From contig CP087208.1 of assembly GCA_020912385.1 (NCBI GenBank), positions 2,604,001 through 2,668,000 on the forward strand: DNA of 64,000 nt, written 5' to 3'. Below, in pieces: positions 15,555 through 56,535 of this stretch (the first letter of the stretch is position 1; each line of letters opens with the position of its first letter). The notes beneath the pieces were generated by a model. The model did not search any database. It was not told the DNA's origin and saw only the letters and a list, made by a program, of their open reading frames with translations. The position numbers were made by a program, and so were the translations under genes. Source of the DNA: Neofusicoccum parvum (Eukaryota; Ascomycota; Dothideomycetes; Botryosphaeriales; Botryosphaeriaceae).

Positions 15555-15573
15555 CCAATCCGGCTTAACCCCA
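15555..15573 (+). promoter_or_regulatory. Putative snRNA upstream element of the 15.7 kb gene
   Basis: CCCAATCCGGCTTAACC lies about 60 bp upstream of a TATA box. It closely matches the element CCCAATSTGGCTTAGC found at a similar distance upstream of both U2 genes in this window (28208-28223 and 56157-56172). I read it as a shared proximal or upstream sequence element of fungal snRNA-type genes. The role is inferred from position and conservation only. Confidence 0.5.
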
Positions 15574-15677
15574 GCCAACTTGTGCCCGTGATCGTTGGCA
15601 GCCGTCCGCCCTCTGCTTCCTATATAAAACCCCTTCCTCCTCGCCCTGAGGGTCTCTTCTTCTTTTCTTCGGCAGGA

Positions 15678-15828
15678 CATTACTACACGTCCAGCGGGGC
15701 GGCCGTGATCAAGCAGACGGCCGTCCTACCCGATCCGTGTGGCTCTCGGGTTGCAGAGGTAATTAGCAGGCTATGCCCCTCCGCACTGGACCAATTTTTG
15801 GCTTCACACAAGCTCCGCAGGAGCACTC
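15678..15828 (+). ncRNA. U1-like small nuclear RNA with non-canonical 5' tail
   Basis: TATATAAA (15621-15627) is followed about 55 nt later by an RNA-like unit. A long-range helix GTCCAG (15689-15694) with CTGGAC (15786-15791) closes a cruciform, like helix H of U1. Its first arm has a GGCCG/CGGCC stem with the loop GATCAAGCAG (15707-15716), which matches the U1-70K-binding loop I (GATCAAGAAG in the canonical U1 at 27.6 kb). A second hairpin, CCCGA...TCGGG, lacks the ATTGCAC loop bound by U1A. An Sm site AATTTTTGG (15793-15801) and a final hairpin GCTC-CGCAG-GAGC follow. The single-stranded 5' tail reads ATTACTACAC instead of ATACTTACCT. Downstream lies the shared bipartite element (15844-15885). 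It may be a variant or a decaying U1; the 5' end is estimated from the TATA spacing and helix position. Confidence 0.6.
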
Positions 15829-15834
15829 TCAAAC

Positions 15835-15885
15835 TTTTTTTTTTTTCGTCGCTGCTCTGCCCACGCGGCGGGCTTTGAGGAAGAA
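15835..15885 (+). terminator. Bipartite snRNA 3' element (TTTTCG - 30 nt - GGAAG), copy A
   Basis: A T-run ending TTTTTTCGTCG is followed exactly 30 nt after TCG by GGAAGAAAG, preceded by CTTTGA. The same two blocks with 30-32 nt spacing occur downstream of all six snRNA-type units in the window. It is probably a 3'-end formation signal. Confidence 0.55.
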
Positions 15886-18800
15886 AGATCTCGACCCACC
15901 AATCCAAACTCCCCAGACAGAATACCCAATGCGATCTCGACCACGCGCCCGGCCCCCACCTCCATCGCAGCCAGCCAGCCAACCAACCAGCCAGCCAGCC
16001 CGGCGGCGCTGAGCCTCAGGCACGCGCGCACATCCTCGGCACTTCGCTCGATCGCTGAGGAAAAGGGCTCCGACGTCCGACGTTCATGCAAGCGGCCGCA
16101 CTCGGGCGCTGCCATCGCCGCCACCCGCCCTTCGCTCATGCGCGCAATACGCACGCAGCCGCCACGGGCACGCCACGCCACGCCATGCACGCACCCGCCG
16201 GTCGGCCCGCCACGCGCGGTTGGCTGGGGAGGGCGGGAAGGGAGGTCGCACGGCAGGGGGACGAACAAAGAGGCCAGTCAGTCAGCCCAGTCAGCCGCGT
16301 TAGGGAGGTGTTTGGCAGCGGCGGTGCGCTGGGGAGGCGTCTGGCCACCCACCTGCCGCATCGGGCGACGTGCGCCGCCGCCGCCGCGACCGTCGAACGT
16401 CGCGCGGATGGGTATGAGTTCAGGATGCATTGCTGCCCGCGCTGGCGTCGCCTGGTACTAGCGGCTGGGGAGGGATGGCGGCGGGTGGCGAGGGGTGTGT
16501 GAGGGTTGGGTTGGGTTGTCGCGCGAGGCTGCGCGGAGGTGGAGGTGGAGGTGTTCGTGCTGCCCTCTCCTCCCCAATCCCCCCGATGAGACAGGCGGCC
16601 CTGCCTGCCTGCCACCGTCCGCGAGAAGCCAGACGGTCGAGGATGGGCGCGAGATTTGGGGCGGCCGCGGATCGGCGGGAGCGGGCGGGCGGGCGGCCCT
16701 GGCCTCGCGCGCGGCTGCTAAACCGCATCGGGCGGCGCGCATGATGGTCGAACTTCTGGAGACTGTGCAGATATGACCACCCTGCGGACTTGCGCTAACG
16801 GGCTCGAGGAGGATCGTCGCCTGGGTGGCTGGGGTTGAGCCGGGGGGGGTCACGGGGACGGGAGAGGAACGGGTGTCGCGGCGGGCTGCAGCGGTTGGCG
16901 CGACGGTCGACCTTGTCGAAGATTCCTTGCTGCGTCCGAAGTTGCGTGCTGTGTAACCTGCCTGCGAGCACGCGGGTCCCTGCGATCCGCGTGCGTGGGG
17001 CTGGGGCGTTGTTCTCTCGTCCCAGAGCTGGGTTCTATCTCACACGCAGGTGCGTTCGATTGACTACGTGTAGCAGCTTGTGCTAATATCGAACGCCGAC
17101 AACATGTTGTGCTCCATGCACTACCGCCAGCTCTGGTGGCCCGCGCTTTGAGCTTTATCACGGCGTTCTCCAAAAATCCACCAGCGGGCAGACGAGGGTC
17201 AAGCCGTCCAGTGCGACGAAAGTCATTACACGCTTTCTTTCTGCATGGCTTCACTGCTCACGGATTTTGTCGTGGAGTTGGCTTTCGGACTTTTTGCAGC
17301 TGACTCCTTCTATTGGACCATGGTAGCAGGTGGATTTCTATTCTTTTCAACTACTTTCGTCCCAAAACGTAGCCTTCGTCCAGCACGGTCTTAGTGCTTG
17401 AAAATACTACTTCCAGGAAACAAAGAACTGGATAAAACTTCTCTGCAACTGTGGCCACAGCCTTTCTGACGAGGCATTGAATAAACGCAGCTGCGCGCAA
17501 CGCAGATGCGACCACGCCATCGCGGCCTTTCCAAGACATGGACATTCAAAGTCGTCCTTCTCCTTTGTCCTGTGTGCACGCCTTGTGGTGCATGCTGATT
17601 CTTCAGTGCACTAGTACGCACAAAGGTGCTGTCGGCTTCGACTTGGCAGCCGACTATGGAATAGCGTTAATACACTGCCTTATTGGCACTGACCCCAACA
17701 TCGCCAGACTTTGGGGAAGCGCAGAGTACGGATACTTCATGCGTGACGTTTCGTACCTCCACGCTCCCTCATCTCTGTGCTGCAAATCAACTCACGTCCC
17801 TCTGCCCGGAAGCCCCAGACATCGAGGCCGTCGGTCCCATGCTCCGCCCTCTGAAAGCATCTGCAGATGACGCCGACTTTTTTTGCAGCGTAGCAAGATT
17901 TGCCTAGCGAGCATGCCGCTGACCCGGAGAAGGCGGTCGGGCTAGTCTTTGTAGGTGTAGCCGGTGGTGAGAGGTTCTGTATCATCCCACAGATAGTGGG
18001 CTGGGCGAGTTCGGCGTGCCATTTCCCTCGAATGCCTGTCAGCGTGCTACAAGAACCCATAGGAGCGCTCGTGAGAGGGAGAACCGGAGACCGCAGGGCT
18101 GCAATGACAGACCACCTTGCACCTCGCCTTGAGAGAGGACCGGCGTCTGACTCGCCTGCGATAAAGAAGGCGCTGCCTCGCGCCGCTACGCCGCAACGCC
18201 GCAGCACGCCAACCCGGAAAAGCGACAGTCTGCAGGCGCGCGGCCACAGAGGCTTGCTGTGCACTCGCGCCACGGCTCGATTCGAGCGCGCTGCATGAAG
18301 GTCGAACGTCTGCGCCTTTGTTCTAGTTACGCAACGGCAATTGCATCGAACGCCGGCGAGCTTCCAGGGCGACACTAACGCCTGCGGTGCGCGCCGGGGA
18401 GGACATGCAGGCGGCCGTCGTGTCGCGGCCGCCTCGGGCAGAGACGCTGCCACCGACGTCCGACGCCAGAGCAAACATCTCAGCAGCCGCCGTCCGACCT
18501 TCCCGCATCGGCGCGCCTGCATGCAGCCCCAGCGCAGCACGCCCGCAGTCCTCCGCACACACGTCGCGCCCCAGCTCCGCCCTGCCACTGTGGCCCCACA
18601 CGGACCCCAGCGCCGCAGCGGCCGCCCGCAACTTCGAACGTCTACGACAACGTGTGTGCAACGCGACGACCCTGCTTCGCCGGCCGGGGCTCCCGAGAGA
18701 GGCGAGGCGGAAAAGCACACGACCGGGAGGGCTAGGGGGGGGGGGGGGCCGCCGCCGCCGCGTCGACGGATTCCCCCAAGCGTCGTGGCCCACGGAAAAC

Positions 18801-20815
18801 GCGGCGGCGGCGGACATTTTTCGCGAGCCGCGGAAACCGCACGACGTTCGATGTTGTTGCGTCGCCGGTTCGGTCAGGTGCAGGTGCAGGTGCAGCAGCC
18901 CGCCCTCCCTCGCCCTTCGTGTCGGCGCGTCGGGGGCTTGGGGGCGCGAGACGCCAGCGCGCAGAGAGCGACTTCAGCGGCGCTGCTGTTATTCCCGCGG
19001 CCAGGCAGGAATCGGCGGCCGTGTCAGGCAGCAAGCAGGCGCGCTCAGGCAGGCCCGGACGGGGAGGGCAGCACTTGCGATCAGGCGTCCTCCTCCCTCC
19101 TTGCCTTCTTGGGGGAATAGACTGGCAGACTTTTCAACGTCGAACGTCTGAAGAGGTGCTTGGCTGCCGGTCCGCTGCAGTCTAGAGTTTCTTGGAGGCG
19201 TTGCTTGTGCCGTGTGCGTTCCATGGTTCGCTGCAGGAGCAGCAGCGCAGCACCAGCACCAGCAGCACCAGCAGCAGCAGAGCACAGCGCGGGCAGGCCG
19301 TCGGCGCGGCCACTCGGTGCTCGGCCAGCGCAGGCTCGGGGCTGCTGCGTCGCTCTGGTCGCCCGCGGAGCGGCTGCCTCGCTGCGCGCTCGACGTCCAC
19401 GCCGCAGTGTTGCGCTTCTTGGCCGCGACGTCAAGCATTCCGATTAATCTGTTCGACACGGGCTGCGCCCGCCAGCACGACTGCAATCCTCGACGCCCGC
19501 TGAAACCGCCTGCCTGCCTCCCGCCGTCCACCTCGGCCTTCCGCCCTCGGACTTCAGCCGCAGTCCCCGACCTTCCCCTCTCCCTCGCACCACCACGGCC
19601 CGGGACGACGAAAAAATTTGCGCTTCGCCGACAACTTCGAACGTCGGAAGGGTTGCTTGGCTGCCGTGCTGTCGGCCACGGCGCCCGTTCCAAGACCATG
19701 CTTCCGTTGCTTCGCTCACCGCGCGTCGTTCCCTCGCCGTGCCATCGCCGCGCCGTTGGGAGCGCCTGCAGCGACGTCCCCTCGCACCACAGCCGCACGG
19801 CACAACCCGCAGGCGTCGCCGATCCGTCTCCCAGAGGCAGACGTGAGCCGCATCAGCCCTACGAGGCGGCTGTGCAAGTGCTCAGAGAAGCTCGAGGCCA
19901 GGGTATCCACGCCGCCGCTCCCTCCCCTCCGGTCCCAATGGGAGCCGCATGCACTGCTCCCGTCCCGACGAGACGTCCGCCCACGACGATCACGCCCGCC
20001 CGCCGCCCCTCCTGCCCACCTCCGCGCGGCGGGCGACCCAAAACGCCCGCCCAGCTGGCAAACACCGCGCCGAAATAGCCGACCCGATATCGCCCGCCCG
20101 CACGGCAAACGCAGCGCCAAGCAGCGAAATGTGCGCCGGGCCGATCAAAACATGGCTCGAAAACCCATCACGCCCGTAAGAAGAAGAGAGGAAAAAAAAA
20201 AAATTGGGAACGCCGGCGCGCGGGAAAGTGGATCTGATAAGATTTTCGCGGCGTCAACAACCATGGCCAGCCCCCGCTTCACGCTCATCTCCGCGCACCG
20301 CTTCACCAACACCTTACTGCTTGCGGGTCGCATCCGGCTCCGCCAAGACCGGACGGCCCTCCAGCCCTCGCCTCTCCCGCGAGTCAACCGCCGCGTTGGT
20401 GGGCAGGACATGCGTTGGCGAGGCGGGTGCTCGACAAATGCGACCCCACCGGCCGCCGCTGGGTCGGGAGAATCCCGAGAGAGTGAGGGAAAGAGCCAGT
20501 CGAACGATGCTCGTCGGAGTTAACTAGGCTGGCGACTTGAGGCTGCACCGCGCCGCGCAACGTGGGCACGGCGACCGTAGCATCGGGGCCGCCCCATGCC
20601 TTCCGGACTGCGCGCGCCCCCCGGCCGCGTGGGAGTGGTGGGCGCCGCGCGGTGGACGGGCGCCATGGCTGCCGTGGGGTACAAAATGGACGGGCACGCG
20701 CGCTCGCTCTCCCTCCGCCGCAGGCATCTTATCTGATCCGTTTCCTCTCTTCCTCACTCTCCATTCCCTCCCTCCCGAGCACGCGCAGCGCCGTCTGCGC
20801 AGCCGCCCACAGCCA
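15886..20815. other. Gene-poor GC-rich region carrying motif copies
   Basis: I see no credible protein gene. Open frames of up to about 330 codons on both strands are Ala/Arg/Pro-rich and overlap each other, as expected by chance at this GC content. The region holds copies of the TCGAACGTCG motif (16393, 18302, 18634, 18842, 19140, 19637, plus degenerate ones at 16748, 17089 and 18346), a run of about 14 G (18735-18748), and the pyrimidine-rich promoter of the MFS gene at its right end. Confidence 0.5.
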
Positions 20816-22531
20816 ATGAGTTCCACGGACCAGGAGCGGGCCGACCGCGACGGAGCACGCGAGCGGAAAGACGCGGTCGGCGTGGCCGCGGTGCCCGCCG
20901 ACGACGGCAGCGGCGCGTCTGTCCGGAGCGCGCGGAGCGAGGGCGGGCGGAGCATGGTGGTGCCGCTGCGCATGAAGATCGTGTCCATTCTCATGGTCAC
21001 GGCGATTGGGTTCGGGTCGCACTGGAGCAGCGGCGTGACGGGGGCGATGAAGAGCACGCTGAAGAAGGTGCGTCGTGCTTTGCCGGGGCGTGGAGGCGGC
21101 CGGGTCGAGGCGTTGGGCGGAGAGGCTGACGGCTGGCGCAGCAATTGCACATCAACAACGCGCAGTACTCGGTCCTGGAGGCCAGCGAGGACTTCATGGT
21201 CACGGCGCTGATCCTGGTCAGCGGCGCGGTGACGGATCGGATTGGCGGTGCTGGTCGGTCTCTCGCATCCCGCAGATATGCAGCAGCTCCACTGACGGGA
21301 CACAGGTGCCATGCTCTGGGGAAACGCCATCTTCAGCGTCGGCGCCATCCTCATAGCGGCGGCAACGACGGTGCGCTCGTACAAGTTCATGATCTTCGGC
21401 ATCATCGTGCAGTCGCTGGGCGACATCGCGACGCAGGTGGCGCAGTACAAGGTCTTCAGCTCGTGGTTCGCGCCGTCCAACGGGTTCGCGTCGACGCTGG
21501 GGTTCGAGCTGGGCATCGGCAAGATCGGGTCGTTCGTGGGCAAGGCCACGGCCAACGTGATCGCCAAGAAGACGGGCGACTTCAGCTGGGTGTACTGGAC
21601 GGCGGTGTTCATGAACCTGTTCACCAACGTGGCGACGCTGGCCTTCTGGTTCTTCACGCGCTGGTGCGACCGCCACTACTCGGGCACGGCCGACCCGGCC
21701 ACCGGCGAGAAGCTGACCGAGAAGAACAAGCGCTTCGAGTTCGGCAAGATGCTGCGGCTGCCGTGGCCGTTCTGGTGCGTGATCCTGTTCTCGCTCTTCC
21801 AGACCAGCACCGCCATCGTCTTCTCGCAGAACGCCACCGAGCTGGCCGAGCAGCGCTTCAACATCGACGCCGTCACCGCCGGCTGGTACTCGGCCATGTC
21901 GCAGTACCTGGGCTTCTTCCTGGTGCCGCTGATCGGCATCTTCGTCGACCTGCTGGGCAACCGGCTGACGCTGATGCTGGTGTGCGGCCTGGGCATGCTG
22001 CTGTCCATGTGCCTGGCCGCGTGGGGCTCGACCGTCGGCGGCACGGCCGCGTCGTTCGGCATCTACGCCTTCGCGCTGGCCTTCGGGCCCACGGTCATCA
22101 TCGACGGCATCCGCACGTCCATGTGGTACCAGGAGGTGTTCGGCTCCGGCTACGCCGTCAAGATCGCCGTCAACAACAGCATGAACATCATCGTGCGCAT
22201 CGTCACCGGCGTCATCCAGGACCGCGACAACAACTCGTACGACAACGTCGTCGTCGTCTACGTCATCCTGGCCGCCGGCTCCGTCGTCGTCTCCGTCGTG
22301 CTGTTCGCCCTCGGCTTCTTCTCCGTCGACCTGGGCCGCCTGCAGTGGACGAAGAAGCAGCGCCTGCGCAAGGGCAACCTCATCAACGAGCGCAGGGAGA
22401 AGTTCGAGAGCGGCGAGGAGGGCGCCAGGAACAGGAGGGTCAGCATGGGGTTCTTCGTTTTCCTGCTGTTCTTGATGGCGGGCGCGTGGGCCGCGTACTT
22501 CTGGGGTGTTGCGACGGGTAATAATGACTAG
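20816..22531 (+). CDS. Major facilitator superfamily permease, MFSD1-like (527 aa)
   Basis: Three exons, 20816-21067, 21142-21247 and 21306-22531, are joined through introns GTGCGT/GCGCAG (phase 0) and GTGCTG/ACACAG (phase 1). A polar N-terminus of about 48 residues is followed by about 12 hydrophobic segments. Family features include NNAQYSVLEASEDF after the first helix, SGAVTDRIGGA (the MFS loop 2-3 signature, DRIGG) and GFELGIGKIGSFVGK. These resemble the MFSD1-type group of MFS proteins, whose animal member exports dipeptides from lysosomes. The fungal substrate is unknown and a vacuolar or plasma membrane location is possible. A TATA-poor, CT-rich promoter precedes it. It is the only clear protein gene in about 17 kb. 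Confidence 0.85.
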
Positions 22532-23017
22532 GCGTTAGGATTGGACGCGGGGTGGAAATAGGAGGATAGACGAAGGGTTAAAATATGGAATAGAAGAAGG
22601 GGAAAAGGAAGATGCTAATGGCTTATATCTTGTTGAGCATCTCTGCACTGTCAGCATTGCGAGAAGTAACAAATCATGGTCAAACAAACCCTGTTCCTTG
22701 AAATAGCAGTGACTGTTCCCCTCTTTCAGTCCAGAATCCCTTCGAACCGCGTCAAATGAGCTGCAAAAGAATTAGCAGCACATAAATGACCTCCATTCGA
22801 GAGACATCGTAAAGTAAGCAAGACGCTTACATGGAACGCTGAAATATTCGTTTGGATATAGACGCAATGTGCTTTATGTAGAAAAGCCATCTGTAAAAGT
22901 TTCTACTTCAAATCAGAAAACTTCATCGAACTGATGTCGGCCGGCTTGCTTTTTCTTTTTTTTGGCAACCCACCTTTCACTCACTGGATCGGCCAGAACT
23001 CGGGATAGACGCGGGGG

Positions 23018-23062
23018 AGGTCGGCCTACCAAGCGGAGCTCGATCGCTTGGTAGGCCGACCT
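23018..23062. repeat. Perfect 18-bp inverted repeat with 9-nt loop
   Basis: AGGTCGGCCTACCAAGCG (23018-23035) is exactly mirrored by CGCTTGGTAGGCCGACCT (23045-23062) around the loop GAGCTCGAT. The stem is 18 bp with no mismatch. It lies 22 bp before a TCGAACGTCG motif copy (23085-23094). No gene encodes it; it may be a structured RNA segment or a recent palindrome. Confidence 0.85.
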
Positions 23063-27300: not shown

Positions 27301-27414
27301 CCTCGCAGGCAGCTGCTTAGCGCAGCGAGCAGGCCCAAGCCCATCGCAAGCAAGCAGCGCCTCGCACGAAGTGAAGTCCCTCAAGCCCAAGCCCCAATGC
27401 CGCTCATCGTCAAA

Positions 27415-27459
27415 CCTTCCTCAATGCGCGCCGCGTGTGCGTCACACCAACGAAAGAGT
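27415..27459 (-). terminator. Bipartite snRNA 3' element, copy B (U1)
   Basis: On the minus strand ACTCTTTCGTTGG (27459-27447) directly follows the U1 RNA. Exactly 30 nt after TCG comes GGAAGG, preceded by CATTGA. This copy sits behind a canonical U1, which supports a real function of the element in snRNA 3'-end formation. Confidence 0.6.
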
Positions 27460-27619
27460 GAGCCGGTCTGCAGACCGGAGTGGTAGCCATCAAAAATTGT
27501 CCCCATGTATAGCCCCCGAAGGTAGCTACATACCCGTCACCGACCGCAGCGTGCAATGCAGGGTGGACTGGGCAGGCTTTCTGTCTTCTTGATCGCAGAG
27601 GCCCGAGGAAGGTAAGTTT
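27460..27619 (-). ncRNA. U1 spliceosomal snRNA (canonical)
   Basis: The minus-strand RNA starts AAACTTACCT (5' at 27619), whose ACUUAC pairs with 5' splice sites (GUAAGU). Stem-loop I carries GATCAAGAAG (27594-27585), the U1-70K site. Stem-loop II carries ATTGCAC within CACCCTGCATTGCACGCTG (27565-27547), the U1A-type loop. The Sm site AATTTTTGA is at 27498-27490 and the terminal hairpin CCGGTCTGCAGACCGG at 27478-27463. Length is about 160 nt, as for other U1 RNAs. A TATA-like TACATAAA lies at 27670-27663, about 45-50 bp upstream. The bipartite 3' element follows directly. U1 recognises 5' splice sites during spliceosome assembly in the nucleus. Exact ends are estimated. Confidence 0.88.
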
Positions 27620-27662: not shown

Positions 27663-27670
27663 TTTATGTA
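27663..27670 (-). promoter_or_regulatory. TATA-like box of the U1 gene
   Basis: TACATAAA on the minus strand lies about 45-50 bp upstream of the U1 5' end, the same spacing as the TATA boxes of the U2 genes in this window. Confidence 0.6.
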
Positions 27671-28203
27671 GGCGAGCCATCGGGCAAGCGAGTGCTTCGT
27701 CAGCGCGGCCGTGCCGGCGTTGGTCCGACTGGAAGGCGCGGCGGACACTGGCGACGGCGGTCAGGAACCGCGGACGCCGACGAAAGGCAGGCACGGGCGC
27801 GAAGCTGGCAGCAGCTGTTGTTGCTCGAGGGGAAGTGGAAGTGGTCGCCTCCGCAGTCACTCTGGAATACACAGTCGCCGTGGTGGGCAGATACCAGTAA
27901 CTGCCGTCCGACATCTTGCGCACTCCTGGGAAGATATGAACAAGCTTGATGCAGGAGGCGGGCTCCTGGGCATTGCTGTGCGCCAATCATTCACAGGCGC
28001 CAGGCGAAGTAGAGCGGTGCTCGCCGGTCTTTTTCGCACGCACACGGTATGGCCTCTCGCAAGCTGGCAGCATCAAAGGTGTCTCTGACGGATGTGCGGA
28101 CGTAGTGATGGCATCGATCACGAGGCTTCCATGACTTTCCACGCCTGCTCAGCCCGCTTGCGCCGCGGACCAGGCATTCCTTCTGCAGCTTCCAAACAAT
28201 CAC

Positions 28204-28272
28204 CACTCCCCAATGTGGCTTAGCACCACGAGGCTCTTCCTCGCTTGACCCCGTCCCGCCCACACATATAAA
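28204..28272 (+). promoter_or_regulatory. U2 promoter: upstream element and TATA box (copy at 28.3 kb)
   Basis: CACTCCCCAATGTGGCTTAG (within 28204-28224) is followed by ATATAAA (28266-28272), 44 bp before the RNA start. The upstream block is shared almost exactly with the U2 copy at 56.3 kb and in part with the U1-like gene at 15.7 kb. The bases between TATA and RNA (CCGCCCTCCTCCTCTGCTCT) are identical in both U2 copies. Confidence 0.7.
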
Positions 28273-28309
28273 CCGCCCTCCTCCTCTGCTCTGCCTCCCT
28301 TTCTTCTCC

Positions 28310-28493
28310 AGCTCTCTTGCCATTTTGGCTAAGATCAAGTGAAGTAGCTGTTCTTCTCAGTTTAATCTCTGGGACGTGCCTACGGGTGCACTAGTGATTA
28401 AACCAGTTTTTGGAACCCGATTGGCGGCCGCTGAACTCCGTTCATGTCGCTAATCACAGTGTCGCCAGTACTGCACTGCCTCTGGCTGACGCG
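28310..28493 (+). ncRNA. U2 spliceosomal snRNA, copy 1, with altered branch-site recognition hexamer
   Basis: The 5' domain TTTTGGCTAAGATCAAGTG matches the U2 region that pairs with U6. Then come GAAGTAG (28341-28347) where U2 normally has GTAGTAT, and CTGTTCTTCTCAGTTTAAT as in stem-loop IIa. An Sm site AGTTTTTGG (28405-28413), a variable stem-loop III, and stem-loop IV GCCAG-TACTGCACTGCCT-CTGGC (28464-28486), the U2B''/A' binding loop, follow. Length is about 184 nt, normal for U2. Together these leave little doubt about family. The T-to-A change in the branch-recognition hexamer is seen in both copies of this window. It is either a functional variant or a non-functional duplicate. Confidence 0.82.
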
Positions 28494-28497
28494 AACA

Positions 28498-28546
28498 TTT
28501 CTTTTTCGTTGTGCGCTTCAGCATGCCTGGAGCTTCAAGGAAGAAG
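28498..28546 (+). terminator. Bipartite snRNA 3' element, copy C (U2)
   Basis: TTTCTTTTTCGTTG, then 30 nt after TCG, GGAAGAAGG preceded by CTTCAA. Same arrangement as at the other five snRNA-type loci. Confidence 0.6.
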
Positions 28547-30346
28547 GTTTCTTATGAGAGCTGTCACCAGTGTCTGCCACCCTCCAGTAGGTTTTCTTGG
28601 CTGCTTGATAAGCTGGGCTCGTGGTGTTGAGTTGCAACCCATAGCGACTGCGACGTTGTTTGTTTTGGTCTCACAAACAGCGATGCATGCTTGCTTGATT
28701 ACTTGGTGTTTTGATGCAGCGCCGGACAACCTGATCTGTCTGGCGCTCACTGATAGCGCAAAGCCACAACACTTCTCGGCATTTCTCGCTGCCGGTCTTC
28801 ACCTGGAGAGGTAGCGCCGCGTCCCAACAGAGCAAGAAAAAGTAGCATTGCCAAGATGAGCCTTCGCGCTATCTCCAAGTCGCTGTTCAGCAACATAAGG
28901 TTAAACAGTCACCTCCCTCGACGCTCTTACTTGGCACCTGCCGATGGCCCACTTACGCAAAGCATCATTCGCCGACTCGTGTCCCCAACCTCTGCCATGT
29001 TTCGCCCTTGCTACGACCCGACGCACAGATGTATCGCACGAAAATATTTCCGACCAAACCCATTCAGAACTTCAGATACCCACAGCAAGGCAGCACTGCC
29101 AGAGCTTGGCCGATCACTTTTTCCACAAAGCACCACTATCCTCGTTCAATTTTATACTTTAACCTCGACGACGAAGGATCTTCGGAAAGTAATTCGTCAT
29201 CTACTGCGGATCGTAGGTTCTCGTCCAGGCGAATTATTCCAACTACGTCACCTTCGCAGCCGATCCACCTGAGCCGCAAGCAGGAAGATAGACAGGGATC
29301 TGAACCGCTGCCCTCTCAAGGGAGTTAGAGAGGGTACCGGCGCTGTTCTTCTTGCTGTGCGGGCGAGGAAAACCCAATTGAGCGTATGTTGCATGAATGC
29401 GGAAGACCAACTGGGAGCTGAGGGAATGGAAGACTCGTATGTACGAGATAGCCTTCTAGAGACATAATAACGGCCTGCTTGCGACCGCGCAAAAAGCACC
29501 CAATTAACTCCTGCTTACAATCTGAATGTTGTGCCACTCCACAAGGCAGCCAAGTAACACTTGATGGTATGAACCCAGTAGACAAATTAGGGGCTATAGG
29601 CAAATAAGTAGGGATCCTTACCCTGCTTGAGTAGGACGTAAAAGACAATTGATCATATTTCAAGACGTCTTCTCTAAACTCGTAGATGTTGGTCGGATTT
29701 TTCACAGCCGCGGGAAATTCTTTTCCACTGTTGGCAAGCTCAACCGGCTCCCCGGCTTGCAGTAGCACCGGAATGAAGCATCTTTGTCGTCACGAATATC
29801 TCTGCCCTTGGTTGAGCAGTCCCGTAACACAACATAAAGCTTGGTAGATGTCAATTTCCAGGGGACAGGAAGGGACACCTTCACAAAAGAGTGAAGATTA
29901 TGAAGGCAACAATAATTCTTATCTTTCTATTCCGCAATATCTTTATTCTGCCATCGTCTCTCCATCCTCGCACTTCGCCTCAACTCTCGTGTTTTTGTAG
30001 TTACGTCTCCTTCTTGAGCTTCTAAAGCATATACTGTACGTACGATCTCACATCCTCATGAGTGCAGCGGCATGTCTGCATCATCGTTATCCTTTCCCCA
30101 ACAATGGAACAAGGTCGACCCGGGCACGAACTGTCGACCCCAATACGGCCCCTCTGATAGGCAAGGTACTGAAGAGTTGGAGGTCGTAAAACATAGGGAT
30201 AAATCCCCCAGGGATCATATTTTCAACATCGGTCCCCTCGCCGCGGAATGTTGCTTCACCGGTCCGTCTGCCATGCTTGACGACCTGCAGAAGTCTGATC
30301 GTCGGCGCATCAATAACGTTGGTTACATGAAGCCCCGCTAATTGCG
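28547..30346. other. Gene-poor stretch with one doubtful short frame
   Basis: A frame from ATG 28856 (context CCAAGATG) to 29272 would start with a basic, Ser/Arg-rich segment resembling a mitochondrial presequence, SLRAISKSLFSNIRLNSHLP, but the remainder (about 95 residues) shows no recognisable domain and no clear splice sites. It may be the 5' remnant of a mitochondrial protein gene. I see nothing else between here and 30346. Confidence 0.3.
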
Positions 30347-36886: not shown

Positions 36887-37681
36887 AGTGATGAGGGGGT
36901 TGGCGATATGTGTGCTGGTTCTCGCATTTGCTTCAGTCCGGGATCAAACGGAGGTGGAAATGTACTTGATGCTTGTTATACGCTCTATGTTTGTTTCGCC
37001 ATGGGGGAGTCAAAGTGTGAATCGCCAGCTCATGCCATCCATCATGTAAGGCGTCGGGATGGTAAACTCAAAATTGATCGGCTTCTGGCCGGAGCCAGTA
37101 GACGCTGCGCACAATAGGGGCCGGATGAGCGGTCTACGGGTAGCGGCCGCTCTTCTTTATGAGGTTTCCGCCACTGGGGGGTTCTCCATGGCGACGACTT
37201 GATAGGAGGATGTCCGGCGTAGAGCGCAGATGGTCGTGATGCTGCTTGTTCTAGCCTCACGCCAGGGCGGAGCGTAGGTTAAGACAGCAAGTTAATGCCA
37301 CCGCAAGTTTTAAAAGTAAGGCGGAGGGCACCACTAGGGCGGCGCAAAGGCAATCAACTCGGAATATCTGGCAAAAGACGATAGAAGTAGTTACTGCCGC
37401 CATCTGAAGGTAGTACATACTGCCACGTTGTTTGTGGGAAGCGAGGAAAGAGCCGGAAGTCGGGGAGCGAGCGCGGTCATGGGCTAGGCATGCTCTGTCG
37501 GATCCTTCGTTCATGGTGTGAAATGTGAAACAGTGGGAGAGGAAGGGAAATCCAGTGCTGCACCTGCCCGTCACATCCGAACCAAGATGATGGATTGGGA
37601 AAATGTAGCGTCAGAAGCATGTCACATTTTCTTCCAAATTCAGCCACTTGCTCGCTTAGTAGTGATTCCCTCTCACACACC

Positions 37682-37688
37682 TATATAA
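37682..37688 (+). promoter_or_regulatory. TATA box of the 37.7 kb snRNA-like gene
   Basis: CTATATAAACC here matches the TATA contexts of the U2 and U1-like genes in the window (ATATAAACC, TATATAAAACC), with the RNA-like unit starting about 45 bp downstream. Confidence 0.6.
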
Positions 37689-37727
37689 ACCTGCTTACTC
37701 TTCGTCTAGATGCTTCTTCCTCTTCTC

Positions 37728-37852
37728 AATTAGCAGTAGGTGGACCGGGTTGGCAACCCGCAGGCGGTCCCTCGAGGGCCGCTTAACTTGCTTCGCTAAC
37801 AAGTATAATCAGCCTCAATCTTTGGAACTAGATACCTTTGCAGTATCATCTT
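37728..37852 (+). ncRNA. Unassigned Sm-class snRNA-like gene
   Basis: It has the same gene architecture as the U1 and U2 loci: TATA about 45 bp upstream and the bipartite 3' element downstream. The RNA of about 125 nt would start near CAATTAGCAGTAGG and form a hairpin CGGGTT-GGC-AACCCG inside a GGACCG...CGGTCC stem, then small hairpins CCCTCGAGGG and ACTTG...CAAGT. An Sm-like site AATCTTTGG (37817-37825) and a terminal hairpin GATAC-CTTTGCA-GTATC (37831-37847) follow. I do not find the signature loops of U1, U2, U4 or U5, nor the ACAGAGA box of U6. It may be a diverged spliceosomal RNA or another capped nuclear RNA. Ends are approximate. Confidence 0.5.
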
Positions 37853-37905
37853 CTGTCTCTTTTTCGTTGAAGATCTAGCCAAGCGCCGGACTTTGAGGAA
37901 GAAGG
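37853..37905 (+). terminator. Bipartite snRNA 3' element, copy D
   Basis: TCTCTTTTTCGTTG, then 30 nt after TCG, GGAAGAAGG preceded by CTTTGA. This is essentially identical to the element behind the U2 gene at 28.5 kb and is the main evidence that the preceding unit is an snRNA-type gene. Confidence 0.6.
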
Positions 37906-38388
37906 TTGGCGGTGAGTCTAGTAACAATTTGTTTGGTCTGGCTTGCTCTGTTGGTTTATGCTGGGGTCTTGTTTCTACGCCAGGCTGAAAGCCATCGTCT
38001 TTGGGCGGAATTACGCCGAGGAGTGGTTGCTTGGGGAGATTAGAAGGGTAGGCCGCATTTCTTCTGCGAGCGCGCCTTCTGTACAGCCGTGTTTCGCTGC
38101 TTTGCGTCACTTTCGCTACATTTAGACAAAGAATAGCATGGTTGACGAACTTGACGTTAATGTGAGCTTAATTTCCTTTTGCGATGGGAATAGAGTCGGA
38201 AATAATAAGGAGCTCTTTTTTCTTCGAGATGAGGACGATGGTGATGGCCGAGAAGTTGACAGTTCAGATGATGACGAGCAGGAGTTGTAGGCAGAGACAA
38301 ATGGGATGAAAATCAGCACTCTCGCAATCGGGTATTAGTCTACGAAAACCTCCAAAGCACGCCGTGAAACTCCAAAAGCACATCGTCC

Positions 38389-49531: not shown

Positions 49532-52156
49532 ATGGAGAGATCTCAAGCTGGACCTCTTCAGCCCAAGCGTCGAAGAGTGGAACTTGCATGCGTGTCATGC
49601 CGTCAAAGGAAGTCTCGTGTAGGCTTCTCATCACCTTTTTTCACGGCGGATGTTGATTGATGTCCAACAGTGTGATGGGTGCAGGCCCATCTGTACGTCT
49701 TGTCTTGAGCTCAAGATCCATTGCAGCTACGAGAACACGAGCCAAACCCGCACAAATAAGCGGGATGCCATCTCCGAGTACGTTTGTGTATCATCTTTCA
49801 TGGATGGATGCTAATGGGCGGTATAGCACCAACAATAGACTGATCCGCAGGGTGAAGGAGCTGGAGGGCAAGCTGGCTGCCTTGTCACCCATTCCTCCGG
49901 CACAGTCACAAATGCGCACAAATACGAGGCTTTCGCCGCGAAAGGAGAGAAACTCAGCTGACCCATTACCTATGGGCGAGATACCTGGAACTGCCTGTGA
50001 AAATGCGTCTCCGCAGAAGATTGCCTCAAGCGGCAGTGAGGAAGAAATCCCAAGCGAAGCTGCCGTAGACACGCTTGCAACAGACGCATTCAACGAGGTT
50101 CCCGAACGGAACATTGGATATTTTGGTGGGTTTAGTTTTCCTTGCGGAATACGTGCCCTAGAGGTCACATTTGCTTATCAAATTGACCAGGTCCAACATC
50201 AAATCACGCGTTGTTCCGCACCCTATCTGACATATTCGCGCGCAGTACACACTCGAATGGCTCAGGTCGCACCTTCAGAACAGCTGATACCACAATCATT
50301 GATCCTCAACATGAGAGCTCTGCTGGAGGAAACGATTCAAAGCCAAGAGAACATGAGCCTTGCTTAGATGACCCCTACACGCTGCCTGACCATGAGCAGA
50401 TGGGCTTGCTCGTGGCCCGATTCTGTGAGTCGGTCGGTATGGTATTACCGTACATCAACAAAGACCTCGTGCTTGAGGAAACAAAGCTTCTTCAAGAAAG
50501 GCCTGCTCGTAAGCTTTCGAGATCAATGCGGGCACTGCTGAACATGATCTGCGCACACGCTTCGTCAACTATACCCAACGAAAGCCCTGAGATATTTTAC
50601 CGCCGAGCATTGGCTCTCTTAGATGAACGCACACTTCGAGGATCAAACCTCGAGCTGGGTGAGCTGCTCTCAAGAAAAGTACTATGGACGCCTCTGCTGA
50701 CTTCAACGTAGTGCAGACGCTTCTGCTACTTGCAATCTTTCAACAGAACAATCAGAGGGCGGTCGCCAGCTGGACTTATCACGCTATTGTAGTAAAGGCA
50801 GCGTATCAGCTGGGCCTTCACTCGCGGTCCGTTGACGAAGAGGACGAGGCACAGAACAATGACCTTCGCCGAAGATTGTGGTATGCTGTTATCAACCAAG
50901 ATAGGTACTTGAACGGACTCCATACTGTAAAACTATCTCTCTACTGATACTTGGTAGATGTCTGGGTATTGCGCTTGGTCGGCCATTTTTGATTCCGGGG
51001 CAATACATTCGTGCTCCGAAAGCTTTGAACCACTATTCCACAACGGTTGTACTGTCGGGTGACAATATCAACCTGCTTTACTTTGACCACCTCACGTATG
51101 CTTTGACTCCTTTCCGTAACATGGAGCAGGTATGCTGATGGGCAGCCAGATCACTATACAGTATCAGCGCCTCTGTGGTTGAGTCTCTGTATGACCACAA
51201 TATCGGCGACGCGTGTAATCCTTCTCTCAATGAGGTCATCGTGAGGAGACTGCAATTGTCGTTGAAACTGGATGGGTGGTGCCACCTTACGACCAAACAT
51301 TTCAAGATCATCTCCAATACTGAGGTAAGCTCTTGGGACCCTGTAGTATTCCACAGGAAAAGATTCCAAATTCTCTTGTCTATTCACTACTACAAGACCT
51401 CACTACTCATCAACTGCCCGGTAATTACAATATTTCTGAATGGAAAAGGGAGGAAAGAGCATGATACGACATCAATTACTACTCTTCTTGAACACGTGGT
51501 CCCGGTAATCAAGAAAAGCTTCTTGGCTGCAAAAGAACTACAGAAAATCATACACGCCACGGCTAAAAATGGAGGGGCCTTTCTCGACTCTAATGCCGCA
51601 TGGTGGACCTGCAATTATACTTGTAAGTGGAACAGGCTCGGCAAGCGCCGAATAAGTAATTGATTGTCGGATTATCCTCCTGATAACTCCCAGCGTTTAT
51701 TGTCATTCTCCATCTATTTAGCGTCTTCCTCGCATTTCAACACGTTGAAGTGTCGTCTTCTCTCCCAGAAGTCAGGCTCGCCGACGTTCGAGCTGCCCTG
51801 AATCACGGCCTGGAAACCTTACAATTCGTCGAGAGAACAAGCCTCATGAGTCGGAAAGCTCGCCAATGCGTTTCGGGTTTTTTGAAAGCCTACGACTCTC
51901 TCAGTAAGCAGCGTTGCACTATTCAGTTCAGCTCCTCGAACTGACCCTCCTAGCTTCTACTCAGCGAGACCCGTGCCTGGGAGACTCTGGTATTGCGCAC
52001 TCTTCGGAACCGGTTGCGACGGGAGCCCTTGATCCCTTCCTGGGAGATGAACTCTCCGAGAACTTATTTTCACAATTTGTTGTGCAGTCAGCAGATGATT
52101 TCTTATTCCAGTGCAGCGATAGTGCCTTCTTGGATGCGGATATTGATATCCAATAG
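49532..52156 (+). CDS. Zn2Cys6 transcription factor with fungal_trans domain (725 aa)
   Basis: Nine exons: 49532-49618, 49671-49777, 49827-50125, 50191-50658, 50712-50904, 50958-51095, 51150-51622, 51694-51903 and 51954-52156. All have canonical introns and consistent phase. The binuclear zinc cluster has Cys at 20, 23, 30, 37, 40 and 47 (C-x2-C-x6-C-x6-C-x2-C-x6-C) and starts RRRVELACVSCRQRKSRC. A short linker and a coiled-coil (RLIRRVKELEGKLAAL) for dimerisation follow. The middle regulatory domain contains NNQRAVASWTYHAIVVKAAY and LRRRLWYAVINQDRCLGIAL, typical of fungal_trans. It probably regulates the adjoining P450, exporter and monooxygenase genes; this is inference from position. Nuclear. 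Confidence 0.92.
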
Positions 52157-52706
52157 CAGATCACGAAAGAGCAGGGTTGGAAGAGATTGGGCTGGTTGAG
52201 CCACACGCCAACAGAACTTCCCTCCCTACACACTGCGTTCGGCGTTTGGTCTCGAACATCACAATCAACATGTCAATCGGATTTTCGATTAAAATTCACG
52301 CCACTTCCGCATCCGTGGTCTCATTGATGGGACAATCTCCGTTTTCGGTGGTTCTCAGCTCAGCTCTTGGCGGAAGGTCAGAATATCAATAATCTACCCC
52401 GCATAGACTATAGTCTACACTTGCCGCTAGCCATGAGTGGATACCCAGGAAAGCCCTATCCAGGCACGATGTGATCCTTTGATGGCAAGTAGAAATGTTT
52501 GCCTCTCACATGCAAGGAGTTCGAAGAGCTGAATAAGTCTGTTTGCCTTACGCCCATAATTATGGTGAAGCGGGTTCTTTTTCTTTTTTTCACATGTCAG
52601 TGCGAATCAAAAGCATATATTAGCTGCAATATTTTGCTCGAGCAATGCGATCTCACAAAGCAATTTCCAGATCATTATTCCACAGCATCCATACATCTTG
52701 TTCTGC
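52157..52706. other. Intergenic region between regulator and hydrolase gene
   Basis: AT-richer than the surroundings; no supported gene. It contains a T-rich tract (52574-52592) and presumably the promoter of the following gene. Confidence 0.4.
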
Positions 52707-55044
52707 ATGAAAATGGCTACCCACTACAGTCCCACCGATCTCCGCCCAAAAAAGCGCCTGGTTGTGTGCTGCGACGGTACCTGGCAAGCTGGAGACAAAA
52801 CCTATGCGACCAGTCCTTCAAACGTTGCCAAGCTGAGCCGTATGATACATCGTGAATCGACCCCGGAAGGCATCCCACAAGTCGTCTATTACCAGTCGGG
52901 TGTTGGTACGAGTGGATATCTGGACACCATCGGTCAAAGTTTGCTACCCAATACCTTTTTAATGAGTATAACTAATGACTGGGCAGTCACTTTTGGTTGG
53001 GGTCTTCTCGACAACGTCGCAACTGCTTATCACTACCTTTCCACCAACTTCCATGCTGAGAGCGATGGTTATGCGAATGACGAAATTTTTTTGTTCGGAT
53101 TCTCTCGAGGAGCCTACACTGCTCGTGCCCTTGGGAGTTTGGTGACTGAGATGGGGCTCCTCAAACCTCAGTACTTAAACAAATTTAACAGGGCATTCGG
53201 AATCTACAAGATTCTCGGCCGGAGAATGGCAAAGGCTATTGAGATCGATGAGTACTTCGGTAGGAAGGCCCTCTATAGTCTCAACGACTTCGTAACCACT
53301 TTGGAAAACGGGGACAGAAAGTTTTGGAATGACATCACGAGCAAGAAGACGGATGATGATATGAAGTTCAAGAAGACATATGATAATGTCAAGATCAAGG
53401 CGATTGGAGTCTGGGAAACCGTAATGTCACCTGGAAACAGTTATCTGGCACTTGCTGACTTGGAAATAGGTCGGCGCCCTCGGAGTCCCACAGAGTCTGA
53501 TCTCAAATGTTTTCCCTTGGATAAATGCACGTCATCAGTTCTTCAACACCGCTCTCAGCCCCAGTAGGTCCACCTTCATCCACTTTTCACATAAGGCTAA
53601 GAAGTGAAAAGACATTGAAAACGCCTTCCAGGCCCTCGCACTGGACGAGCACCGTGGGTCATTTCCGCCAGCATTGTGGTACCTGCCAAAAACAATCAAA
53701 GCTCATGAAAAGATGCCGAATCTCAAGCAATGCTGGTTCCCTGGATTCCACGAAAGCATTGGGGGCGGTGGAGTCAAACTTCAGTTTCTGCTCAGAGAAC
53801 AGCTTCCATTTATCGCAAGTTGGATCGATCCGGATGATTCGCAGATACATGAGGTTACCCTCGCGTGGATGTGTGACCAGCTCGATGGCATTCTGACTTT
53901 CAATGAGGACGCCGTGAACAAGATCCTCTTGAGGCCAGGCGAAAACAAGGACACCTGGGCCGCTTCCAAAGAAACCGATTCCTTCCAAAGCCTGGCATCT
54001 TGGCAACTAGAAGTTCTGGGAGGCTGCCACCCAAGAACCCCGGGTCGATATCATCCTCGCCTGGAGACAAACGAGACCGTACATCCATCGGTTCATTATC
54101 GCATGAACATCGGAAATCTACACTACTCTCCAAAGCCGCTTCGTGAGCGATATGTCCATTGCTACCATCTTGGGCTTCCAATTTACCACTTCACCGTGCC
54201 GCGTTGGAGTTTCGGCGAACTATTTTGGTGGTTGTGCTCACTGGCGTGGGATCTGGGTGCACCAGCTCGGTATCTGGCTTCACCGCTTGGCGATGTCGTG
54301 AAAACCCTTTATCGCGACGGTAGGCATCTCTTGGGCCACGCTTCACACCGGTGGAATATTTTCCAGGAAAAGATACTCCCCAAAGCAATCGTTATACTCC
54401 GAATAGCCCTCTTTTTCTTTCCAATTTGGGTCGCAACCCCGGCACTTTGGAAATGGGAGGATGAGGCGAAGAAGAAGGACAATGCGAAGGGAGAAAAAGA
54501 GAAGGGAAAACAGACACTGTACAGCGCAAGCTGGGTGCGACATGAGGTTGGTCAGACGCTGCTGCAGAGGGAACAGACGCAGGTATCCCTCCCAGAATGG
54601 ATAATCCGTGAATCGAAAGATACGCGTAAAATCAACTTTGAGATGGCCATCCTACCTCCCAAAGTCAAGGTCTACCTGGACGAACGGAATTCTGGTTACA
54701 TCACAAGATTAGAAAACCTCGATACGGAGATGACTCCACACCACACTAGGACGGATTGGAAACTGAGGGGATTTGTCCGGAAAAAAAGCCAACAACCAGA
54801 ACTATCCTCTTACACAACGAGCCAGCAGACGCATCAGTCTTCTCAGACAACGAGTCAGCAGCTGTATGAGCTTTCTCAGCAATCGTTCCAGCAGTCTCCT
54901 CAAACCAAGCAAGGGAAAACCAAGCGTGCAAAAGTCAACGGCACCACCCATGAGAGGAATGGTAAAGGTACAGCAGGAATGGAGGAAAATTGTATGCCGT
55001 ACGAAGGTATGCCGGTCGACCTCGCAGTTCAACAGCATGGGTAG
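52707..55044 (+). CDS. DUF2235 (Tle1-like phospholipase fold) alpha/beta hydrolase with C-terminal membrane segment (746 aa)
   Basis: Three exons, 52707-53420, 53470-53563 and 53612-55044, restore KAIGVWETVGALGVPQSL and NTALSPNIENAFQALALDEH across the introns. The N-terminus has KKRLVVCCDGTWQ, the conserved C/FDGTW strand of DUF2235. The nucleophile elbow GFSRGAYTAR (Ser near residue 132) fits the GxSxG pattern of lipases. LALDEHRGSFPPALW and CWFPGFHESIGGG carry the acidic and His parts of the predicted triad. Bacterial relatives include Tle1-type phospholipase effectors; fungal members are common and largely uncharacterised. A hydrophobic helix (about residues 485-505, RIALFFFPIWVATPALW) is followed by a Lys/Glu-rich stretch and a Gln/Ser/Thr-rich tail (TTSQQTHQSSQTTSQQ). 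Lipid hydrolase activity is inferred from the fold. Confidence 0.88.
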
Positions 55045-55510
55045 ATCTGATCGGAGTGAACCTCATGGTTGGTGGTATAGTTCCTATTGCGCGGATCTTT
55101 ATCTTATGAGAGAAATTGTGTTTTATCGATCCTGTATGTCTCAATAAATCATTCGATAAGTCTTTAGTGTAATCCTCAGTAAGTGGAGGTTGAAGTAACA
55201 GCGATTCCGATCAAAACATCGCAGTGGAATGGTACCGACATAGGCGTTCATCCAGCAGCCTTGAGCATGTCGATAGTGGCTCAAAGGTTAAGGCAACAAA
55301 GCCACACTGCTTTGGTGGTGGGAAAGATTGCTGAAGTGATGATTCCGTAGACTACGGCGCTGGGGATGCATGTACGACACACCGAAAGCTCTTCGGGCCG
55401 GCTCAGGGCACACTCATGAGCATCACAAGAACGTAGAGCGTAGTCTTCCTCGAGCTTTGGTGACGTCGTAGCCAGCGGGTGTGAGGGTTGGGCCATAGAT
55501 GGTTTCTCCC

Positions 55511-55557
55511 AGATCTTCCTTGAAGCCCCGCGCATGGCAGAAAACACTCAACGAAAA
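55511..55557 (-). terminator. Bipartite snRNA 3' element, copy E
   Basis: On the minus strand TTTTCGTTGAGTG (55557-55545) is followed 32 nt after TCG by GGAAGATC, preceded by CTTCAA. It marks the 3' side of a minus-strand snRNA-like unit. Confidence 0.6.
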
Positions 55558-55561
55558 CGCT

Positions 55562-55672
55562 TGATGGGCGGGAGCGCCGAGGAAGTGCAATACGGCTCTC
55601 CTTTTTTCCAAAAATAAGACATCATTGATCGATCGCAAGAGAGAAGCATAAGAAGAACAGTCGTAGTCTAGA
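55562..55672 (-). ncRNA. Compact U2-related snRNA-like gene
   Basis: Minus strand: a TATA-like GCTATAAGAGG (55720-55710) lies about 45 bp upstream of an RNA of about 110 nt. The RNA includes ACTACGACTGTTCTTCTT, where CTGTTCTTCT matches the U2 segment directly after the branch-recognition hexamer. An Sm site TTATTTTTGG (55617-55608) is followed at once by a hairpin with stem GGAGAGCCG/CGGCGCTCC and loop TATTGCACTTCCT (55592-55580). That loop strongly resembles U2 stem-loop IV (TATTGCACTATCT in the neighbouring U2). The U2/U6 helix I sequence is absent and the position of GTAGTA reads differently. It looks like a shortened or strongly diverged U2, or another Sm-class RNA that uses a U2B''-type loop. 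The 5' end is estimated. Confidence 0.5.
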
Positions 55673-56147
55673 GAAGAGAAGGGAGTTGGTTTCGGGCGAG
55701 GGAGAGCGGCCTCTTATAGCACAACCACCTCCTCGCTTAGGGAGGGTGCTCGGACCAAGATTATTAGGTGACAGCATCATGTGCGGTACGGCTGGAGCGG
55801 TTCTGCAGCTGCTGAAGTCCGGCATGTGATCAGACGCGCCTGCCCCCAGCCGGGGCATAGCGGCGTGCACTTCCGTCTGCCTGTGGGCAATGTAATCACC
55901 ACGCTCGAGAGGCTCGAAATGCTCCAACCGACCGAGTTGTTCGACCATGGCAAGAGCAAACTCCGCAGCCTGAACTTGCTGTCTTCGAATCTGTGCCGTG
56001 ATGGCAAACATGGTGGTCATGAGATGTCCCGCCCTGTCAATCTGGAACGATACTTGCATGAGCGGCAAGAAGGTTTCCACCAGCCTCATCTTCCCTACGT
56101 AGATCAGCCTCATACAGCCACTACCAGCCCAATCGTGCTCCAAACCA

Positions 56148-56242
56148 TCACCACTCCCCAATCTGGCTTAGCGACCCGCCGATCCATCATCTGCTCGCCT
56201 CGCCAACCGACGCTTGGGCGCCCTCCCGCCTCCGCATATAAA
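56148..56242 (+). promoter_or_regulatory. U2 promoter: upstream element and TATA box (copy at 56.3 kb)
   Basis: ATCACCACTCCCCAATCTGG, continuing CTTAGCG, ends at 56172; the TATA box CATATAAACC is at 56235-56244, about 40-45 bp before the RNA. Both blocks match the promoter of the U2 copy at 28.3 kb, although the sequence between them differs. This indicates that the two blocks are under selection. Confidence 0.7.
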
Positions 56243-56279
56243 CCGCCCTCCTCCTCTGCTCTGCCTCCCTTTCTTCTCC

Positions 56280-56465
56280 AGCTCTCTTTGCCATTTGGCT
56301 TAGATCAAGTGAAGTAACTGTTTTTCTTAGTTTGATCGCTAAGAGGTGCCTACGGGTTCACCAGTGATTGAACCAGTTTTTGGAACCTGGTCGGCGGCCT
56401 GCTGGGCTCCGCCTATGTCGCTGGCCACAGTGTCGCTAGTATTGCACTATCTCTGGCTGACGCAA
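56280..56465 (+). ncRNA. U2 spliceosomal snRNA, copy 2, with altered branch-site recognition hexamer
   Basis: ATTTGGCTTAGATCAAGTG (U2/U6 pairing region) is followed by GAAGTAA (56311-56317) in place of GTAGTAT, then a stem-loop IIa CTTAG-TTTGATCG-CTAAG (56326-56343). A IIb-like hairpin, the Sm site AGTTTTTGG (56375-56383), a GC-rich stem-loop III, and stem-loop IV GCTAG-TATTGCACTATCT-CTGGC (56435-56457) complete the RNA. It is about 186 nt. Compared with the copy at 28.3 kb many loops differ, but the stems are kept by paired changes (for example CTTAG/CTAAG in IIa), which suggests both RNAs fold and are maintained. U2 pairs with the intron branch site and with U6. Both copies share the same T-to-A change in the hexamer. 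Confidence 0.82.
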
Positions 56466-56487
56466 ACCACCACTGTCGGTGGTAGCT

Positions 56488-56535
56488 TGTCTTTTCGTTG
56501 AGTGTCTCCAGCTTGACTGGGGCCTTGAGGAAGAG
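56488..56535 (+). terminator. Bipartite snRNA 3' element, copy F (U2)
   Basis: TGTCTTTTCGTTGAGTG, then 31 nt after TCG, GGAAGAG preceded by CCTTGA. A small extra hairpin, CCACC-ACTGTC-GGTGG (56467-56482), lies between the RNA and this element. Confidence 0.6.

Follow-up and report, generated by a model that had tools for sequence, protein, structure and literature searches.

A covarying RNA hairpin with a fixed loop and foot lies behind U1, U2 and U4 genes of a filamentous ascomycete

In the metazoan 3' box and Integrator system, the signal downstream of small nuclear RNA (snRNA) genes is a DNA or RNA word that is not known to include a long covarying hairpin. The closest described systems are found in yeasts. 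In fission yeast, according to the available part of the report, U1, U2, U4 and U5 are each followed directly by a stable hairpin of 23-32 nucleotides (nt) whose loop spans 3-5 nt. These hairpins recruit Pac1, which occupies the four genes but not U6; the enzyme requires a stem of about 20 nt, in which bulges are tolerated (PMC8421224). For budding yeast, the accessible part of a second report describes cleavage of U1, U2, U4 and U5 3' extensions by Rnt1, at distances from the loop of 14 nt on its 5' side and 16 nt on its 3' side; Rnt1 binds AGNN loops and also cleaves 3- and 5-nt loops in vitro (PMC13183374). Here we analyse a 64 kb stretch of contig C3 of the grapevine-associated fungus Neofusicoccum parvum (positions 2604001-2668000; hereafter the window) together with the whole genome (44 Mb, 18 contigs), the one genome examined, and describe an RNA hairpin that lies downstream of its U1, U2 and U4 genes.

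As far as the accessible text of the fission-yeast study allows a comparison, this hairpin resembles the Pac1 hairpins in its stability, its place directly 3' of snRNA genes transcribed by RNA polymerase II (Pol II), its small loop, its bulge and its absence from U6, but differs in having 19 base pairs (bp) instead of 23-32 nt, in having a fixed loop and foot where theirs are described as free in loop and sequence, and in lacking U5 among its genes (PMC8421224). With the Rnt1 hairpins, in the available description, it shares the position in the 3' extensions of U1, U2 and U4, there cut by RNase III, and the likeness would extend to the loop as the main determinant and to the 14/16 nt ruler; the Rnt1 hairpins have an AGNN tetraloop, and no cut consensus in mRNA targets, in place of the CANGM pentaloop and fixed foot with a G.G mismatch seen here (PMC13183374). 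Like the 12-nt motif at the 3' end of Giardia noncoding RNAs, as the accessible part of that report presents it, the hairpin is one processing motif that joins snRNAs with unnamed RNAs and reveals new ones, the Giardia motif being short and linear and ours a covarying hairpin (PMC3510501). The original prediction, which was made for the window, knew of no precedent in Pezizomycotina. The kind of signal is in fact known from yeasts, as the available parts of the two reports document (PMC8421224, PMC13183374), while in searches of one open-access library, judged by titles and the beginnings of abstracts, we found neither such an element nor a U2 expansion for Pezizomycotina. What looks new is the loop, the sequence-fixed putative cut zone, the absence at U5 and U3 and the number of genes involved.

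Behind six RNA-like units of the window, near 15.7, 27.5, 28.3, 37.7, 55.6 and 56.3 kb, the original prediction had placed TTTTCGTTG followed by GGAAG about 30 nt on, and had interpreted these blocks as a two-part signal with an unconserved spacer. Positions, strands and TCG-to-GGAAG spacing are correct at all six sites. The two-part interpretation is wrong, as is the view of the spacer: the conserved blocks pair with each other as the two sides of the foot of one RNA hairpin, and the spacer is its upper stem, which pairs with itself, covaries and is kept by compensatory change, so that two independent blocks are ruled out. From the foot upwards, a first helix of 7 bp is separated by a nearly invariant G.G mismatch from a second of 5 bp; a one-base bulge follows, then a third helix of 7 bp and a five-base loop. 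Its strands of 21 and 20 nt, with 19 bp and a 5-nt loop, fit a stem of about 20 nt and a loop of 3-5 nt and are borderline against the length range of fission yeast.

The alignment that carries this conclusion contains 46 elements (34 U2, 8 U1, 1 U4 and the three unnamed units of the window), selected by the two blocks alone with the spacer ignored; three of 37 U2 genes (L048, L056 and L057) did not match the blocks and were left out. The alignment is nearly gap-free, and every element folds into the common shape. Across 19 pairs and 874 cells, 91.4% are paired, compared to 73.7% after shuffling, and 158 are double-change cells, compared to 54.2 ± 6.1 in shuffled alignments (0 of 500 as high), a number that drops to 13-33 when the pairing partners are slid by 1-3 columns. 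RNAalifold, unaided, recovers 15 of the 19 pairs. Eight representatives that are less than 60% alike in the upper part contain 32 double-change cells (mean 10.9, maximum 18 in 300 shuffles). Another 25 elements, taken from the 32 further loci treated below (those with a 55-nt element outside the window), contain 66 (mean 20.3, maximum 37 in 500 shuffles), although these loci were mostly picked by eye from two-block matches, a selection that favours hairpins. G.U pairs occupy 162 of 799 paired cells, which favours pairing of RNA over pairing of DNA.

Loop and foot (UUC-G.G-GAA) are fixed, while the intervening stem varies yet still pairs. Columns 10-12 (UUC), 14 (U) and 46-48 (GGA) are invariant in all 46 elements, and columns 13 (G), 45 (A), 49 (A) and 50 (G) are conserved in 45. 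The loop follows the consensus CANGM, with C at position 1 and G at position 4 throughout and A at position 2 in 42 of 46; CATGC occurs in 26 of these elements and in 19 of the 25 others, two of which have a loop starting with T. The G.G mismatch, 14 nt from the loop, is present in 45/46 and 25/25, respectively. A run of at least four T precedes the hairpin in 40 of the 46, the other six having only 2-3 T.

We searched the genome for snRNA genes and found at least 37 U2 matches, all above the Rfam cut-off, from 46 scored of 464 candidates (L115 adds one at 56.2 bits, giving at least 38), 8 U1 matches, none above the cut-off of 69.5 bits (best 66.7), and 2 U5 (one above cut-off), 1 U4, 3 U6 and 2 U3 matches. 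A covariance model detects the hairpin downstream and on the same strand of 45 of 46 U1, U2 and U4 genes (36/37 U2, 8/8 U1, 1/1 U4), with 31.3-72.3 bits; 43 of these 45 genes belong to the model-building set, L048 and L057 being independent of it. The 3' half of the hairpin is missing in L056 and the hairpin of L057 is degenerate (31.3 bits); both are probably pseudogenes. In the window, the model finds the six elements only, at 40.1-63.7 bits, followed by a next best score of 14.0; as all six were among the 46 model-building sequences, the telling point is this gap. No hairpin was detected, with filters off, at the seven U5, U3 and U6 loci (0/2, 0/2 and 0/3, best 7.5 bits), U6 being the gene of RNA polymerase III (Pol III), nor at 11 chance-control two-block loci (best 14.7 bits). 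Short folds of the DNA downstream of the U5 and U3 loci L068, L126 and L127 gave no clear alternative hairpin.

The assignment as a snRNA 3'-end signal, already proposed in the original prediction, is thus well supported by the position directly behind U1, U2 and U4 genes. Absence behind U4, U5 or other U2 genes had been named as evidence against it; the hairpin is present behind U4 and nearly all U2 genes and absent behind both U5 candidates. The suggested genome search with the bare two-block pattern turned out to be a poor detector, giving 104 matches against 75 for the reversed control. A general signal of Pol II noncoding RNAs is ruled out by the U3 loci without hairpin.

We consider it likely that the element is a 3' processing and termination hairpin, located in the 3' extension of small RNAs made by Pol II, mostly of the Sm class, and cut by an RNase III of the Rnt1/Pac1 type, a cleavage that we infer. 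Both the stem geometry and the absence from Pol III-made U6 match fungal RNase III 3' hairpins. When the Rnt1 ruler is laid on the hairpin, 14 nt on the 5' side end at G13 (leaving out the bulge, at U11/C12) and 16 nt on the 3' side at A49, in both cases in the fixed foot. Among the RNase III genes of the genome, two loci have paired domains, one is a weak single-domain match (C7:621449) and one, at C12:1348103, is a clear single-domain gene, whose product combines RNase III and double-stranded-RNA-binding domains and has RNase III chains as its nearest PDB entries. It reads RLEWYGD and GDVFEA, the catalytic motifs of RNase III, and is a gene of the Rnt1/Pac1 type, the candidate for the nuclear enzyme. 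An RNase III reading frame of this genome shares 99% identity with an N. parvum protein. Given the ruler fit and this single-domain gene, we take the hairpin to be its putative substrate. The enzyme would bind the loop, measure along the stem and cut in the invariant foot, at columns 11-13 of the 5' strand and columns 49/50 of the 3' strand, whereupon exonucleases would trim the RNA back to the body of the small nuclear ribonucleoprotein (snRNP), and a 5'-3' exonuclease, loading onto the downstream cut end, would terminate transcription. An upstream TATA box and the 7-mer CTCGCTT, together with the downstream hairpin, form a standard cassette of snRNA-type genes. The hairpin is probably the mark at which the RNA is severed, and it tags a set of unnamed snRNA-like genes. 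If this is true, a filamentous ascomycete has a snRNA 3'-end signal whose cut site can be predicted with an accuracy of a few bases, the covariance model finds snRNA-type genes too divergent for Rfam, and the cut zone of an RNase III substrate is fixed in sequence, unlike in the yeast cases as far as their accessible descriptions go.

Several observations weigh against cleavage by RNase III or against the strength of the structural evidence. U5 and U3, which are RNase III substrates in yeasts, lack the hairpin, so that another 3' signal must serve them. With 19 bp besides one mismatch and one bulge, the stem falls short of the 23-32 nt given in the available part of the fission-yeast report (PMC8421224), and the loop is a pentaloop, not the AGNN or UGNN tetraloop of Rnt1 substrates. 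RNase III does not seem to require a foot as fixed as this one; the mRNA targets of Rnt1, in the part of the report at hand, have no sequence consensus at the cut (PMC13183374), and the fixed foot may therefore indicate another reader. With regard to structure, 12 of 19 pairs have any double change at all, which is not above shuffled alignments (mean 10.6; 55 of 500 reach 12), and the U2 copies are paralogues, so that double-change cells are not independent events. Folding z-scores of the six window hairpins, in coordinate order, are -2.95, -2.06, -2.76, -1.84, -0.33 and -2.70, which is weak for the hairpins at 37.9 kb (-1.84) and at 55.5 kb (-0.33, no better than shuffles). Finally, the evidence is sequence from a single genome, from which transcription and cleavage are predicted.

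The fixed foot and loop, far beyond what RNase III needs, and the lack of hairpins at U5 and U3 would suit a different reader, be it a CPSF73-like or Integrator-like endonuclease, another sequence-specific factor or a hairpin-binding protein of the kind that serves histone mRNAs; a CPSF73-containing complex processes plant snRNA 3' ends, according to the accessible part of the study (PMC5079582). The geometry of the stem fits RNase III and its ruler, and we regard a different reader as rather unlikely; for the Integrator-like variant, Ints3_N has no match in the genome, in a search that had no positive control and does not show absence. It is less probable still that the hairpin is retained as a stabiliser and denotes the end of the mature RNA, not a cut. 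The strong structural conservation would suit a stabiliser, as would the fact that in many genes no more than about 10 nt separate the hairpin from the RNA body; the gap between the Rfam end and the hairpin, however, ranges from 0 to about 75 nt, unlike a part of the particle, and the U2 bodies are complete without it.

Two further explanations appear very improbable. The upstream TATA boxes, and the T run found in most elements, could be read as marks of Pol III genes whose RNA ends in the T run ahead of the hairpin, yet six of 46 elements have fewer than four T, on which ground we reject a Pol III terminator; moreover, the sequence past the T run would be untranscribed but covaries, and the three U6 genes have no hairpin. 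Equally hard to credit is the view that the copies descend from one mobile or duplicated cassette whose 3' part is now functionless. It would account for the many copies, with 23 of them in 318 kb of C3, for the clear U2 subfamilies and for a decayed copy without recognised RNA (the second match in L054), but the hairpin is kept behind the unrelated RNAs U1, U2 and U4, and their differing stems still pair; compensatory change across families counts as refuting this explanation.

Outside the U1, U2 and U4 inventory, we found 33 further hairpin loci: 27 distinct two-block loci, L129, L130, the three unnamed window units and the second match in L054, which is a decayed hairpin copy. L129 and L130 (36.7 and 51.2 bits) came from a second exact pattern with 99 matches against 55 for the reversed control; of four new candidates followed, these two were real and the other two were not (16.7 and 2.3 bits). 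In total there are at least 78 elements, a number that depends on two exact patterns plus the loci fetched. The exact pattern gave no match in viral contigs, which is uninformative. The elements are clustered, 23 of them lying within 318 kb of C3 (2619844-2937690), where 0.56 would be expected if 77 were spread evenly. A second group is seen at C2:1.70-1.86 Mb.

Among 32 further loci examined, five RNAs group with U2 (L087, L091 minus, L112, L115 and L129), L112 and L129 resembling the U2 3' half with a different 5' end, and one, the 15.7 kb unit, groups with U1. Unnamed groups comprise four RNAs (three tandem RNAs of L106 and the 55.6 kb unit), four (L078, L089, L091 plus and L104) and three (L111, L113 and L114), the remainder being single. 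An Sm-like site is present in 17 of the 32 (opposite strand 2), TTGCAC in 11 (opposite strand 2) and a TATA-like motif in 21; as the motif sets for Sm-like sites, TATA-like boxes and CTCGCTT were defined after viewing the sequences, these counts are descriptive, with opposite strands or flanks as controls. L097 and L109 show no sign among Sm-like site, TTGCAC, TATA-like motif and RNA grouping.

In 43 of 46 U1, U2 and U4 genes, the RNA is preceded at a distance of 39-64 nt by a TATA-like motif; L053, L057 and L064 have none within 110 nt upstream. The 7-mer CTCGCTT, in either direction, occurs in 35 of 67 upstream sequences, as against 1 of 92 controls, a figure flattered by its choice as the best of all 7-mers, although the gap is still wide. 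The branch-recognition stretch GTAGTA (GUAGUA in RNA) is intact in 17 of 37 U2 genes. This fungal genome thus holds tens of U2 variants, the majority of which are altered in the branch-site pairing stretch, plus unnamed Sm-type RNAs, a system for asking whether several kinds of snRNP run in one cell. We tentatively raise the possibility, which we hold to be open to considerable doubt, that the hairpin is the common tag of a large, selected snRNP gene system (at least 38 U2, 8 U1 and about two dozen unnamed small RNAs) with a single promoter type and release by a loop-specific RNase III turned dedicated snRNA 3' enzyme. In such a system, most U2 copies may use other branch sites, and several of the unnamed RNAs, with Sm-like sites and putative U1A/U2B''-type TTGCAC loops, would belong to it; a filamentous fungus would thereby possess a diversified spliceosomal or snRNP repertoire. 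Weak hints at an order-level expansion are the 44 snRNAs of Endomelanconiopsis endophytica (PMC10607883) and the 104 of Alanomyces manoharacharyi (PMC11596026), both given by automatic annotation in the available parts of these reports.

In the window, a TATA-like box precedes each of the six units, as originally claimed. Of the proposed canonical U1 and two clear U2 genes, the U2 genes are borne out by Rfam (116.2 and 111 bits), and the U1 gene scores 53.7 bits, under the cut-off of 69.5, despite starting with AAACTTACCT and containing GATCAAGAAG; the units at 15.7, 37.7 and 55.6 kb match no Rfam family. On the minus strand, the U1-like gene (27462..27619) is preceded by the TATA-like TACATAAA (27663..27670), with CTCGCTT beside it (27686..27692), and followed by its hairpin (27413..27458; model match 27409-27463, 40.1 bits). 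The U2 variant gene at 28308..28500 (+) has CTCGCTT at 28240..28246, the TATA-like CATATAAA at 28265..28272 and the hairpin at 28501..28546 (match 28496-28550, 63.7 bits), and carries the branch-recognition stretch GTGAAGTA, not GTGTAGTA. The same GTGAAGTA is found in the second U2 variant gene (56278..56471, +), which has CATATAAA as its TATA-like box (56235..56242) and its hairpin at 56490..56536 (match 56485-56540, 52.7 bits).

Two of the unnamed units lie on the plus strand. That at 15.7 kb, whose RNA groups with U1 genes by blastn (E < 1e-4), has a TATA box at 15621..15629, as read from the sequence, an Sm-like site AATTTTTGG at 15793..15801 and the hairpin at 15841..15886 (match 15836-15890, 56.7 bits); that at 37.7 kb, for which no relative was found, has CTCGCTT at 37651..37657, a TATA box at 37682..37689, an Sm-like site AATCTTTGG at 37817..37825 and the hairpin at 37859..37904 (match 37854-37908, 60.7 bits). 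The third, at 55.6 kb on the minus strand, has the 7-mer as AAGCGAG in gene orientation (55732..55738), the TATA-like TATAAGA (55712..55718), an Sm-like site ATTTTTGG (55608..55615) and the hairpin at 55512..55559 (match 55508-55564, 44.6 bits), and groups by blastn with the three tandem RNAs of L106. At L106 (C3:2916300-2918500), these three small RNA units, relatives of the 55.6 kb unit, are packed into about 1 kb. Every unit has a box of its own, either TATA-like or AT-rich, as well as an Sm-like or T-rich site, a hairpin with TTGCAC and the 3' hairpin.

Some minor observations concern other loci. L111, L113 and L114, and perhaps L093, encode G-rich unnamed RNAs with GGGCACTGGGGG repeats preceding the hairpin. 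At L085, L119, L080 and L130, GGGCCAA...CCC stands right before the hairpin, and three of these four have TATAC- or TACAC-like loops, not CATGC. About 630 nt upstream of the L109 hairpin, which has no other recognised RNA, lies a good match to the C/D small nucleolar RNA snR75 (85.6 bits). Two of the U6 genes, L072 (C5:766338-766444) and L073 (C2:2956570-2956668), are unusual, one having a different 5' part and one losing U6 sequence in its 3' part.

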